Shown: one piece after another, positions 40,499-43,373 of the stretch
Numbering within the stretch: the first letter of the stretch is position 1
Layout of the letters: each line of letters begins with the position of its first letter
DNA from: Lampropedia puyangensis
GTDB taxonomy: Bacteria; Pseudomonadota; Gammaproteobacteria; Burkholderiales; Burkholderiaceae_C
DNA length: 64,000 nt
Assembly (NCBI RefSeq): GCF_004833285.1
Contig: NZ_STFG01000005.1
Coordinates: 1 to 64,000 of the forward strand
Direction of reading: 5' to 3'
Program-made: the position numbers and the translations under genes
Notes under the pieces: generated by a model
Databases searched by the model: none
What the model was told of the DNA's origin: nothing
The model's input: only the letters and a program-made list of their open reading frames with translations

Positions 40499-40550
40499 TG
40501 GCCTGCCAGGAGGGACTCGAACCCCCGACCTGCTGCTTAGAAGGCAGCTG
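40499..40550 (-). pseudogene. 3' part of disrupted tRNA-Arg(TCT), with left att core
   Basis: On the minus strand this is the 3' part of a tRNA: the last base of the D stem, the 5' anticodon stem GCTGC, loop CTTCTAA, 3' stem GCAGC, variable loop, T arm with TTCGAGT, acceptor strand CTGGCAG, discriminator G and CCA (CCA at 40499-40501). The D arm and 5' acceptor strand are missing; beyond 40550 the sequence becomes AT-rich island DNA. The missing 25 bases are found 2.7 kb away at 43266-43290. Confidence 0.9.
40537..40550 (+). repeat. Left core repeat (attL core)
   Basis: TTAGAAGGCAGCTG, identical to 43252-43265. It covers the last D-stem base, the linker, the 5' anticodon stem and the anticodon loop of the split tRNA gene. 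Tyrosine recombinases of phages and islands commonly use this part of tRNA genes. Confidence 0.85.
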
Positions 40551-40601
40551 TTCAATAGAAAAAATATATTAAAATCAATGACTTACGATAGCAAAAAATC
40601 T

Positions 40602-40715
40602 ATTTGGGAAAAATTTGGGAAAAATTTTGGAAAAAATAAGAGTTTCTTCACTAAAAGCTTTAAAAATCTTAAATAGGGTTTTTGTAAGCTATTGATTTTA
40701 CTTATATATTTTCTT
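40602..40715 (+). repeat. Left arm repeat (TTTGGGAAA iterations and shared tail)
   Basis: Bases 40602-40622 are identical to 43112-43132 (two units of ATTTGGGAAA-type sequence), and a third weaker unit TTTTGGAAAAA follows here. At 40679-40700 a 22-base block (TTTTTGTAAGCTATTGATTT and two more bases) matches 43192-43213 at 20 positions. The two copies are in the same orientation and equally spaced, as arm-type integrase sites on both sides of an attP core would be. Confidence 0.7.
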
Positions 40716-40747
40716 GTTTCTAATGTTTGGAGTGGGGCTTTGAGATG

Positions 40748-40774
40748 GAACAGCTGCCTCAAAGGTAGCTGTTC
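40748..40774. repeat. 12-bp hairpin with an att-core-like arm
   Basis: GAACAGCTGCCT (40748-40759) pairs with AGGTAGCTGTTC (40763-40774), with one G-T pair and loop CAA. The first arm equals the 12 bases found at the left tRNA junction read on the minus strand. It lies 50 bases beyond the stop of the cold-shock gene but has no T run, so it may be a weak terminator, a processing signal or a recombinase site. Confidence 0.6.
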
Positions 40775-40823
40775 TATTTATGAAATTTTTTTTTGGTTTA
40801 TATTCCGTAATTTTTCTCTAAAA

Positions 40824-41027
40824 TCAACCAATTTTGATTATTTTTCTTGCTGATGGGCATCGTCCGGTTGAACTTTCATTTAAGGAGAACTGAACTTTAG
40901 CGCCCTCGTATATTTCGGCTTCATTTTCCAAGTCTTTGTAAAAAAAGAAAACGTCTTTTCCTTTTTCTCGTCTGATAAAACCATAGCCTTTGAATGGAAA
41001 AAAGCATTTAATAGTTCCAGTTTCCAT
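40824..41027 (-). CDS. Cold-shock-domain protein in retron operon
   Basis: A 67-aa single cold-shock domain that should bind single-stranded RNA or DNA. It starts METGTIKCFFPFKGYGFIRR, with RNP1-like KGYGFI (residues 13-18) and RNP2-like DVFFFYKD (25-32), and ends with a basic strand ARKIIKIG. It begins 8 bases after the RT stop with GAGAGA upstream, so it is co-translated with the RT. Its AT-rich composition matches the island, not chromosomal csp genes. It may bind the retron RNA or msDNA; this is inference. Confidence 0.85.
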   Translation of the reverse strand: METGTIKCFFPFKGYGFIRREKGKDVFFFYKDLENEAEIYEGAKVQFSLNESSTGRCPSARKIIKIG

Positions 41028-41035
41028 GTTATCTC

Positions 41036-42205
41036 TCAGATCGGTTCGTTGTAAAGAAGTTCATCTTTCATGCCTAATGGTTTGCATGATTTAAGATTCC
41101 CTTTTATTTGGTTTGCCAGTGATTTGTTGTTTCTAGTTAAAATATTTAATTTGTATAAGAGCTTGTGATATTTTTTGAAATAGACATATTTTTTTCTATA
41201 ATTTGGTTTTGATTTTAGTAAATAGTTTGCCTGTTTCCGAATACTGACTTCTTTACTTTTATCGAATAGTGGCAGGATGCCTCTTAAAATATATCTATAT
41301 CTTTCGGACTCTTTATGTTTTAGATATGAAAGTTTTGCAACTTTTCCTGAAATGCTATTGTGTATCTCATGATACTCTGCACTAAAGCGATCTTTTTTTG
41401 CCATTGTTTGACATTTATGCATTTCTGCTCTTATTAATTTTCTATCGTATGTATGCGCTTTGGGGGTTCCTCTGTTTAGCCATAGGCCAGTCACTTCCAT
41501 GAGTATTTCAGGATTCGATCTTGATGTTATTTTTTGTTTTTTATTGTTGAGCTTTAAATCTGATTTGCTGATTGTTTCTTTTGTTTTTTTGATTATTTTT
41601 GTTATTTCTTCTTTGCTTATTAAATGTTTGGAAGAAATATTTATATCATCCAGTAGGCGTGTGTATGTATATTTTTTACTGGATAGCCAAGATACTAGTG
41701 AGTATTCTGTATTATTCAGAATCAAATTTGCAATGTGTGAGCTGCTGCAGCCGCCTTGTGGAACCGAATTGTTTAAACAACAAAGTTCTGCTAATAATTT
41801 AGATACATCTTTGGGGAAGTGACAGAAAAATTGAAAAATCTCTTCTACTTTATCAATTGAAATTGATGGATAGAAATTTTTAATATCTAATGCAATTACA
41901 ACCTCTGCTGAGGAGTGACAATTTGCATTTTTAACATAATCTTTTTCTGGCAATCCACCGTGCAAATACGATGGATAAACAACATTTTCAAAAATGTGTT
42001 TGTTAATTCTCTTTTGTATTATTTTTAAATGATTGCTTGGTATATTGATTTCACGAGTGCCGCCACTTTTTTTAACTATTTCATGAGCATGATAATGCTC
42101 CTCAATATTAGAGGCTGTTCTTTGGAGAATGCTTAGCTCAACTTGTAATGTCTTTGATAGAGCAGCCAAGGAGCCGATAGGGCGAGCATCGTAAAATGGG
42201 CGCAT
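41036..42205 (-). CDS. Retron-type reverse transcriptase with LLDD catalytic box
   Basis: A 389-aa reverse transcriptase. RT blocks in order: REINIPSNHLKIIQKRINK (RT1-2), the retron hallmark NAxxH as NANCH (93-97), motif A VVIALDIKNFYPSI with Asp107, SVPQGGCSSSHIANLIL (147-163, motif B), catalytic box YTRLLDDINIS with Asp186 and Asp187 (the usual YADD is LLDD), motif D LNNKKQKI and the retron VTG motif (238-240, EVTGLWLNRGTP). The C-terminal 130 residues are very basic and probably bind RNA. No maturase or endonuclease domain follows, so it is not a group II intron protein. It sits between the small basic protein and the cold-shock gene. Confidence 0.9.
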   Translation of the reverse strand: MRPFYDARPIGSLAALSKTLQVELSILQRTASNIEEHYHAHEIVKKSGGTREINIPSNHLKIIQKRINKHIFENVVYPSYLHGGLPEKDYVKNANCHSSAEVVIALDIKNFYPSISIDKVEEIFQFFCHFPKDVSKLLAELCCLNNSVPQGGCSSSHIANLILNNTEYSLVSWLSSKKYTYTRLLDDINISSKHLISKEEITKIIKKTKETISKSDLKLNNKKQKITSRSNPEILMEVTGLWLNRGTPKAHTYDRKLIRAEMHKCQTMAKKDRFSAEYHEIHNSISGKVAKLSYLKHKESERYRYILRGILPLFDKSKEVSIRKQANYLLKSKPNYRKKYVYFKKYHKLLYKLNILTRNNKSLANQIKGNLKSCKPLGMKDELLYNEPI

Positions 42206-42264
42206 AAATGAAAAAGGTAAATGTCAACTTATATCGAGAAAATATTTTACTAATTCAACGATAA

Positions 42265-42423
42265 TCAGTTTTGAAAAAAATATTGACTGTTTAGAGAAAA
42301 TAATTTTTTCGAGCCAGCTATTAGCGCTGTTTTTAATCGGAAGTTGCTCTCGCTTCTTCTGATTTTTTTTGTGGTTCTCTTGCGAGATCCCGAATATGAT
42401 TTTTTTTGTGACTTTTTAGTCAT
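42265..42423 (-). CDS. Small basic protein at head of retron operon
   Basis: A 52-aa protein starting MTKKSQKKSYSGSRKRTTKK and ending LFSLNSQYFFQN. About one third of residues are Lys or Arg. I recognise no family. ATG 42423 has AGAGG six bases upstream, which supports translation; the longer frame to 42468 lacks such a site. It ends 59 bases before the RT and is read in the same direction. It could bind nucleic acid. A chance frame cannot be excluded. Confidence 0.6.
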   Translation of the reverse strand: MTKKSQKKSYSGSRKRTTKKIRRSESNFRLKTALIAGSKKLFSLNSQYFFQN

Positions 42424-42430
42424 CTTAACC

Positions 42431-42481
42431 TCTTTTCCGTTAAGCACACCGAGATTGATATGCAGCACAACGCGGAAAAGA
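42431..42481 (-). promoter_or_regulatory. 9-bp inverted repeat over the leader of the basic protein gene
   Basis: TCTTTTCCG (42431-42439) pairs perfectly with CGGAAAAGA (42473-42481), enclosing 33 bases that hold the direct repeat AGCACA twice. The arm next to the gene ends inside the AGAGG ribosome binding site of the 52-aa protein, so folding could limit translation. It could also be part of the retron RNA. Confidence 0.5.
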
Positions 42482-42490
42482 AGTGTTAGA

Positions 42491-42868
42491 GAATTAAAAA
42501 CTTATAGCTGACCCAGACATTTACTTTTTTAGCACAACAACCGACTCTATAAAAAGAGTTCTCAGGAGTCTTTGCCGCTCAATGGGATTAGAGGGGGGGG
42601 ACTGCCTGACCCGCCGGTACAGTTCTGTTAAACAGAACGTTTTCCAAAAAAGAAAACTCAGACTTCTCTAAAAAAAAATCAAAACAAAAATACAGCCCAG
42701 ACGAAGCATCTGGTATGAGACATACTTTAACGCAAAAAATACTTCCGCTAACTTTTCTGGAATAGATTTTTCACATTTATTGTTTATTTTTGTATCATGT
42801 GTAATTTTAGTGGTGTTTTTGAGTATTTTTATCGAAATACATCTGAAGATGTGCTAAGTTTTTTGCTC
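42491..42868 (-). ncRNA. Candidate retron msr-msd RNA
   Basis: A gene-free stretch upstream of the RT operon. Read on the minus strand, AAAAACTTA (42863-42855) can pair with TAAGTTTTT (42504-42496), and GAG/CTC just outside may extend this. The first arm ends TTA followed by GC, as at known branching guanosines (candidate G at 42854). Hairpins lie between: GTATTT/AAATAC (42840-42823), GTATG/CATAC (about 42725-42713), CCAGATG/CGTCTGG (42713-42697), GTTCTG/CAGAAC (42638-42622). A second TTAGC at 42751-42747 is an alternative start just before the tightest hairpins. At about 370 bases it is long for a retron RNA. Confidence 0.5.
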
Positions 42869-43003
42869 TATGGATCTAGCATCCCAAACTTTTCCTGAAT
42901 GGTACTTGTGATGCATTTTGAGAGGTAGCGATAGGTTTCTTATGAGTGAAATAAAACTTCCACGTGTAGCTTAAACCTCATAGGTACTTCTTTGCAGGCA
43001 ATA

Positions 43004-43028
43004 AAAAAGCACCCTTTGGGTGCTTTTT
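43004..43028 (-). terminator. Terminator after the island tRNA-Arg
   Basis: AAAAAGCACCC (43004-43014) and GGGTGCTTTTT (43018-43028) form a perfect 11-bp stem with loop TTT. It lies 5 bases beyond the tRNA 3' end on the minus strand and is followed by T there, so it separates the tRNA from the retron transcript. Confidence 0.88.
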
Positions 43029-43033
43029 GTTTA

Positions 43034-43110
43034 TGGTGCCCCGTGCTGGGTTCGAACCAGCGACATCTCGCTTAGAAGGCGAGTGCTCTATCCAACTGAG
43101 CTAACGGGAC
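43034..43110 (-). tRNA. tRNA-Arg(TCT), complete, carried by the island
   Basis: A 77-nt tRNA on the minus strand. Acceptor GTCCCGT with ACGGGGC, D arm GCTC/GAGC, anticodon stem CTCGC/GCGAG with loop CTTCTAA (anticodon TCT), T arm GCTGG-TTCGAAC-CCAGC, discriminator A and an encoded CCA. It reads the same AGA/AGG-type arginine codons as the split gene but differs in all stems, so it is not a duplicate of it. It lies 142 bases inside the right core repeat and can replace the destroyed tRNA. Confidence 0.95.
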
Positions 43111-43111
43111 A

Positions 43112-43225
43112 ATTTGGGAAAAATTTGGGAAAGATTAGATAAGAATAGGCAAGAAAAGGCCGGAAATAACGGTAGTTCTAAGGATGGCTTATTTTTGTAA
43201 GTTGTTGATTTTAAATATATTTTTT
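43112..43225 (+). repeat. Right arm repeat (TTTGGGAAA iterations and shared tail)
   Basis: The counterpart of 40602-40715. Bases 43112-43132 are identical to 40602-40622, and 43192-43213 matches 40679-40700 at 20 of 22 positions. The intervening part is diverged. It starts two bases beyond the 5' end of the island tRNA. Confidence 0.7.
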
Positions 43226-43251
43226 TAGATTTTGCACCAAATCATTTGAAA

Positions 43252-43290
43252 TTAGAAGGCAGCTGCTCTATCCAGTTGAGCTACTGGCAG
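43252..43290 (-). pseudogene. 5' part of disrupted tRNA-Arg(TCT), with right att core
   Basis: On the minus strand: acceptor CTGCCAG, TA, D arm GCTC-AACTGGATA-GAGC, linker, anticodon stem GCTGC and loop CTTCTAA, then the tRNA breaks off into island sequence (TTTCAAATG). Joined to the part at 40499-40536 it gives an unbroken 77-nt tRNA-Arg(TCT) with all stems paired. The natural promoter should lie just above 43290 and would now transcribe towards the island tRNA. Confidence 0.9.
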
Positions 43291-43373
43291 CTTGATTGCT
43301 GAGCCGATAAGAGCCTGGCATCATACCAGTAGTCATCGGCCCTTTTGTGATGGTCACGCGTTTTCATGTGGAG

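Follow-up and report, generated by a model that had tools for sequence, protein, structure and literature searches.

We analysed a 64-kb stretch of the Lampropedia puyangensis genome (contig NZ_STFG01000005.1, positions 1 to 64,000, hereafter the window) and found in it a tRNA-Arg(TCT) gene that, judging from its sequence, is split by an inserted 2.7-kb element carrying a complete foreign tRNA-Arg(TCT) and a retron. The best explanation, and in our view a highly probable one, is that a retron element entered this gene by tRNA-dependent integration and supplied the replacement tRNA itself (coordinates in Table 1). The two parts of the host gene lie on the minus strand, interrupted in the anticodon arm, and each junction carries the same 14-bp core, TTAGAAGGCAGCTG. 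When the halves are rejoined at the core, ARAGORN accepts a 77-nt tRNA-Arg with anticodon TCT, in which all stems are paired and the CCA end is encoded. Neither half alone is called in the window, no tRNA is called at either junction, and Rfam recognises only a sub-threshold piece of the split gene (40510-40575, E=0.069). The first-pass annotation had described the two parts 2.7 kb apart, the core at both junctions and the fully paired 77-nt product, and had held that neither junction restores the gene; its coordinates proved exact and each of these points stands. It contained neither the second intact tRNA-Arg(TCT), nor the retron identity of the cargo, nor the attachment-site-like (attP-like) ends. 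Unlike the insert of a classical tRNA genomic island, this one does not rebuild its target gene.

The intact form of the gene was found in relatives. Comparison with nine genomes of the same genus (G001-G009) recovered the joined 77-nt sequence letter for letter in seven of them (G001, G003, G004, G005, G006, G007 and G009), in agreement with the splitting of the gene by the element, while G008 has overlapping pieces of the host-type tRNA at two contig ends. The remaining genome, G002, has a full-length tRNA-Arg(TCT) (L135:1501-1577) only 88% identical to the version that is invariant in the seven, perhaps another replacement event. A FemAB-like (DUF482) gene was found in three of the nine genomes, and the intact tRNA adjoins it in all three. 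No GT4 gene was recognised beside the tRNA in these three loci (open reading frame (ORF) lists read by eye, no family search), so that the empty site is confirmed for one flank. The annotation had named as proof of the insertion a relative with the intact tRNA between a GT4 and a DUF482 gene, and this was found on the DUF482 side only.

The carried gene is the one tRNA that ARAGORN calls in the whole window. It belongs to the element, shares the strand of the split gene and is separated from the right core by 141 bp, and it is identical to the host tRNA-Arg(TCT) at 52 of 77 positions and different at the other 25. Its best match outside its own genome, in a scan of 369 genomes of the class, is a tRNA-Arg(CCT) at 87%. 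The GC content of the element (0.33 vs 0.50) also marks it as foreign DNA. In its own genome the carried tRNA gave 13 matches, ten of which yielded loci; at these ARAGORN called the carried gene and otherwise only tRNAs for Thr, Lys, Met, Val, Gly, Tyr and Arg(ACG). The three matches without loci are the split gene and two short matches of 14 and 19 nt. Host-type tRNA-Arg(TCT) sequence is represented in this genome by the two halves only, and no further intact TCT gene was found in the draft assembly (76 contigs, 99.57% complete). The host gene is accordingly single-copy in the draft genome, in which gaps between contigs remain. The annotation had warned that one tRNA-Arg(TCT) gene would go missing if no other copy stood in for it. 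The split is confirmed, and the element itself offers an answer to this concern in its complete tRNA-Arg(TCT). The insertion thus appears to be a tRNA swap, with replacement of the host tRNA by a foreign copy, and not a tRNA loss.

We propose the following course of events. A tyrosine integrase, probably of the PF13356 (P4) type and not encoded in the present element, would have recombined attP with the anticodon arm of the host tRNA, across the 14-bp core. Fourteen base pairs are too few to restore the gene, and the native tRNA would have been destroyed. The element would supply its complete tRNA-Arg(TCT) just inside the junction, and the insertion would be tolerated because it brings this gene. 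Given the position and strand of the carried tRNA, the host tRNA promoter could read into it, and such read-through is plausible. The 9-mer TGGTATGAT, which we take to be an extended -10 motif, is found upstream of the 5' half here and upstream of the intact tRNA in five of the seven relatives examined; the other two have a tRNA-Ser just upstream.

Both ends of the element look like tyrosine-integrase attP arms. The consensus of integration host factor (IHF) is matched three times in the 64 kb, each time in an arm of the element. Three sites in the end windows were not obtained in any of 2,000 dinucleotide shuffles of the element, and at least two sites were obtained in two of them; the end windows had been set after the sites were seen. 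In addition, TTTGGGAAAA-type repeats, spaced by 11 bp and candidates for arm-type integrase sites, occur three times in the left arm and twice in the right. The 20-mer TTTGGGAAAAATTTGGGAAA (up to one mismatch) is found only in this element among 200 genomes of the family, and not at all in viral contigs. A comparable layout is seen in two of the relatives, G001 and G008, where a gene for a PF13356-type integrase lies directly downstream of the same tRNA-Arg(TCT). Between tRNA and integrase these islands have GGGGAA repeats, spaced by 12 bp in G001 and 11 bp in G008, and an IHF-like site, with the full consensus in G008 only. Our element shares with them the target, the IHF-like site and the repeats 11-12 bp apart; unlike it, they carry an integrase, and their tRNA is intact in G001 and cut by contig ends in G008. 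The anticodon loop is a usual crossover site of tyrosine integrases (PMC4383910, PMC8371274). Comparison with phages yielded a similar stretch some 40 bp away from the attP annotated in Psychrobacter phage Psymv2; the match is weak (E=0.007). For the left arm, three phage records were retrieved (E up to 0.1), of which two are this same phage. The right arm gave 12 weak phage records, among the matches listed mostly hypothetical genes with no att site noted, and no match in plasmids.

The left end also bears signs of rearrangement. From about 40602 to 40778 it directly repeats the right end, core-like site included, with a score above that of all 500 block shuffles, which points to a past tandem insertion or an internal deletion. 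The sequence GAACAGCTGCCT is found at 40542-40553 and 40748-40759 and, with one mismatch, at 40763-40774. The last two form a 12-bp palindrome of the core-like site shortly past the end of the effector gene, which may be a second attachment site. A miniature second element at the left end is possible; comparison of the two possible left ends was borderline (59.8 vs 59.2 for the top shuffle).

No integrase gene was found in the parts of the element that were scanned, namely both retron proteins, the small ORF and 17 out of 27 frame pieces without assignment. Eight of these pieces were scanned with PHROGs (weak hits of unknown function, best E=0.0013) and nine with Pfam (best E=0.0028, below cut-off). 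The enzyme would hence have acted in trans or been lost. This result weighs against the proposed integration, and so do several others. The genome has nine PF00589 matches, none in or near the element, and no helper integrase was identified among them (serine recombinases were not searched). The TTTGGGAAA array is absent at those PF00589 loci that were read, five of which have single 9-mers. The number of IHF matches in the 64 kb equals chance (mean 2.92), so that only their placement is unusual. The 20-mer TTTGGGAAAAATTTGGGAAA also occurs on eight further contigs of distant organisms in a collection of genome contigs. The scan for promoters gave no site upstream of the tRNA, and promoter-like sites were no commoner than in shuffles; terminator-like sites showed no excess either (2 found vs a shuffle mean of 1.9). 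As the genome is a draft of 76 contigs, it leaves some room for another TCT gene. Finally, no sibling element was found in ten genomes of the genus: among the matches listed outside its own genome, only tRNA matched tRNA.

The cargo is, by its protein families, a type V (Se72-family) retron. It resembles type V/Se72 retrons in having both an RT_V reverse transcriptase (RT) and a CSD_V protein according to PADLOC, in its cold-shock effector, which scores 93 bits against the NCBIfam Se72 model (cut-off 82), and in a candidate a1-ncRNA-a2 arrangement (ncRNA, non-coding RNA) 5' of the RT gene. The RT shares 36-40% identity with three other enzymes of type V, and no NCBIfam retron RT model exceeds its cut-off (best St85, 166 of 235 bits). 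Reverse transcriptases usually have the catalytic motif YxDD; this one has LLDD, and the three aligned type V enzymes have LLDD or LIDD. The candidate a1/a2 repeats span 320 nt and the second arm ends 6 nt before the RT gene. In 100 shuffles of 42206-42640, none folded as well as the sequence itself (z=-5.4). The score of the repeats was reached by 2 of 100 shuffles for the window, 1 of 100 for a Halomonas locus (L101), none of 100 for a Klebsiella plasmid locus (L103) and 24 of 100 for a locus in genome G016 (L048). This control weakened the ncRNA call, and the borders given in Table 1 are likely, not proven; the predicted RNA has no Rfam match. The lysine-rich ORF inside it has no family match. 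The G016 retron has a frame at the same place with a similar start (MVRKSKK vs MTKKSQKK). The retron genes are AT-rich (GC 0.32-0.35), and 13 of the 21 arginine codons in RT plus cold-shock gene are AGA, which suggests that the retron also leans on the element's own tRNA. A plasmid-borne Se72 retron with a cold-shock ORF is described in a review (PMC6868368).

Table 1. Features of the split tRNA-Arg(TCT) gene and of the inserted element (window positions)
Feature	Position	Strand	Remark
3' half of host tRNA-Arg(TCT), CCA included	40499-40550	minus	rejoined with the 5' half gives the gene found intact in 7 of 9 relatives
14-bp core, left junction	40537-40550		identical to 43252-43265
IHF-like site, left arm	40573-40585	plus	WATCAANNNNTTR
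Three TTTGGGAAAA-type repeats	40603-40635	plus	11-bp spacing; candidate arm-type integrase sites
IHF-like site, left arm	40685-40697	minus	
Core-like palindrome of GAACAGCTGCCT, one mismatch	40748-40774		within the direct repeat of the right end
Cold-shock-domain protein, retron Se72-family effector	40824-41027	minus	PADLOC CSD_V E=3e-26; NCBIfam NF038236.1
Retron reverse transcriptase, type V	41036-42205	minus	PADLOC RT_V E=6.4e-106
Predicted retron ncRNA (msr-msd)	42211-42530	minus	15-nt inverted repeats 42516-42530 and 42211-42225
Small lysine-rich ORF	42265-42468		inside the predicted ncRNA
Hairpin, possible terminator	43004-43028		between carried tRNA and retron; scan lists plus strand only
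Complete foreign tRNA-Arg(TCT)	43034-43110	minus	ARAGORN; Rfam 66.8 bits
Two TTTGGGAAAA-type repeats	43113-43133	plus	11-bp spacing; candidate arm-type sites
IHF-like site, right arm	43198-43210	minus	
14-bp core, right junction	43252-43265		identical to 40537-40550
5' half of host tRNA-Arg(TCT)	43252-43290	minus	rejoins the 3' half
Likely host tRNA promoter, extended -10 TGGTATGAT	43320-43328	minus	same 9-mer 5' of the intact tRNA in 5 of 7 relatives

The same strategy is known from phages. In tRNA-dependent lysogeny the host tRNA is disrupted, the core is too short to rebuild it and the phage provides a tRNA of the same isotype, as found in Fionnbharth, LeBron, Gaia and other actinobacteriophages, where deletions tested it (PMC10865867). 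Table 2 of that article gives cores of 8-17 bp, except in the Omega row, in which a 44-bp core rebuilds the tRNA, and the article names Lj965 as a possible case beyond the actinobacteriophages (PMC10865867). Our element is alike in its insertion in a tRNA gene, its short core (14 vs 8-17 bp), the unrebuilt tRNA and the same-isotype tRNA carried, so that all sequence-level hallmarks of such integration are seen here except an integrase borne by the element. It differs from the actinobacteriophages in its size of 2.7 kb, in the integrase, which was not found, in its retron cargo and in its host, and here the mechanism is read from sequence alone. In Sinorhizobium meliloti, phage-related inserts of 3.24-88.98 kb carry a foreign isoacceptor that takes the place of an inactivated host tRNA (PMC11476347); unlike the element described here, they are not reported to contain a retron cassette in the passages that describe them. 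The retronphage phiR73, a P4-like cryptic prophage mobilised by P2, brings the Ec73 retron to the selenocysteine tRNA (PMC6868368). It too is a retron on a tRNA-targeting element, and the relevant passages of that review do not mention a replacement tRNA for it. Judged by title or opening of the abstract, and among the matches listed, no open-access article was found on a retron cassette that brings a replacement tRNA. Phages are known to use this mechanism; what is new, as far as these searches show, is the vehicle, a 2.7-kb retron element without integrase. If our reading is true, tRNA-dependent integration, demonstrated experimentally in complete temperate phages, extends to an integrase-less retron cassette. 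It would suggest a way to fix a retron in a genome, with loss possible by precise excision only, and one route by which a foreign gene can replace a conserved tRNA gene, and it would offer a concrete test case of integrase use in trans.

How the element came to its present size can be read in two ways. The first, a variant of the integration proposed above, is that it is the shrunken remnant of a larger prophage or island that lost its integrase and other genes, the tRNA being kept because it was needed and the retron because it was useful or by chance. We regard this as a serious possibility, short of an even chance. The published users of the tRNA trick are prophages, the type V retron of G016 is flanked by displaced fragments of tRNA-Thr and adjoins an integrase ORF of 171 aa, and the partial repetition of the right end, with a core-like site, at the left end means that the element has been rearranged. 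On the other hand, none of the 17 (of 27) frame pieces scanned contains an integrase or phage gene, and both arms are still complete in layout. The second way is that the element is a minimal, helper-dependent hitchhiker, a defence cassette with no parts beyond the attP arms, the retron and the tRNA that it swaps in, which may be moved by the integrases of islands or prophages that use the same tRNA; this we hold as a tentative alternative to the first. If the replaced tRNA is essential, as we suppose, the swap would make the cell depend on the insert, and the cassette would be locked in without a toxin-antitoxin pair.

Three further explanations were weighed. The carried tRNA could be part of the retron mechanism, for example as a form resistant to the effector, in keeping with its 25 differences from the host's tRNA and with the frequency of AGA in the retron genes. 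This is very unlikely, as none of five other type V loci has an ARAGORN tRNA in the fetched stretch and replacement alone accounts for the carried gene. Imperfect inverted end repeats (40556-40586 and 43197-43227, 74% complementary), in a whole-end comparison whose score was reached by 2 of 500 shuffles, would suit a transposon, with the 14-bp repeats as its target-site duplication and the tRNA location due to chance. We consider this highly improbable: no transposase was found in the retron proteins, the small ORF or the 17 frame pieces scanned, the inverted repeats share sequence with the IHF-like sites and are set back from the core by 5 and 24 bp, tyrosine integrases commonly use the anticodon loop (PMC4383910, PMC8371274), and a matching replacement tRNA would be a coincidence. 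That the locus is an assembly chimera is hardly credible even for a draft of 76 contigs, since the contig is continuous, the 14-bp joins are exact, the site makes biological sense and the matches listed show no other place in the genome with the insert DNA.

Siblings and donors of the element were also sought more widely. Comparison of the RT with a collection of genome contigs gave 101 stretches matching the pattern, none of which was confirmed, and a four-sequence profile found 18 loci of 24-33% identity in viral contigs. Relatives below 60% identity are present in 34 plasmid records, and phages gave three records. Exact anticodon-arm patterns, used to seek the donor of the tRNA and attP, had no match in viral contigs. 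In this donor search AACAGCTGCCTTCTAA matched four contigs, each time inside a whole tRNA-Arg gene, and the other attP side matched none. Seven of 5426 E. coli genomes have a similar tRNA-Arg, the five listed being at 84-85.5%; of two cases opened, one lies among phage genes and the other on a plasmid.

To place the retron among its kin, we compared six type V loci that have an RT together with a cold-shock gene, namely those of the window, G016, G578, G667, Halomonas (L101) and the Klebsiella plasmid (L103). The idea that type V retrons generally travel with a tRNA found no support, as the window locus alone has an ARAGORN tRNA in the fetched stretch. The other five lie on a small plasmid, on a megaplasmid, in a tRNA-Thr island with intact tRNA and, in two cases, on chromosomes, the latter without a tRNA in the fetched stretch. 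Profile A1 matched four of 399 genomes of the family and RT_V six of 369 genomes of the class, our genome included in both. The five other RT_V matches are ORFs of 321-332 aa, beside which a motif search found no cold-shock gene.

The G016 locus was considered as a second anticodon-split tRNA and rejected, because a wider stretch contains an intact tRNA-Thr(TGT) (ARAGORN) as well as two displaced 3' fragments. These fragments were recognised by pattern and by eye, and Rfam scores neither at E up to 1. The positions concerned are L048:5797, L048:11835 and L170:6323-6398; the inner stretch of 6 kb holds the type V retron and a truncated integrase ORF, and the intact tRNA lies about 25 kb beyond the two fragments. 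The 171-aa ORF is of the PF13356 type, with the arm domain and half of the central domain and no catalytic PF00589 match. The G016 retron is likely to belong to ordinary tandem islands at tRNA-Thr(TGT).

Two observations concern other parts of the L. puyangensis genome. A second retron, of type IV, is found at G000:C30:9643-11590 (L043:5644-7591; PADLOC RT_IV E=2.7e-163, 2TM_IV E=4.1e-64). A PF13356-type integrase is encoded upstream of it, and the end of the contig resembles a tRNA fragment by eye. Elsewhere, a short stretch resembling a miniature inverted-repeat transposable element (L149:2720-2832, G000:C19) has 18-bp inverted ends, GGGCTTTGTTGCATAAAT.

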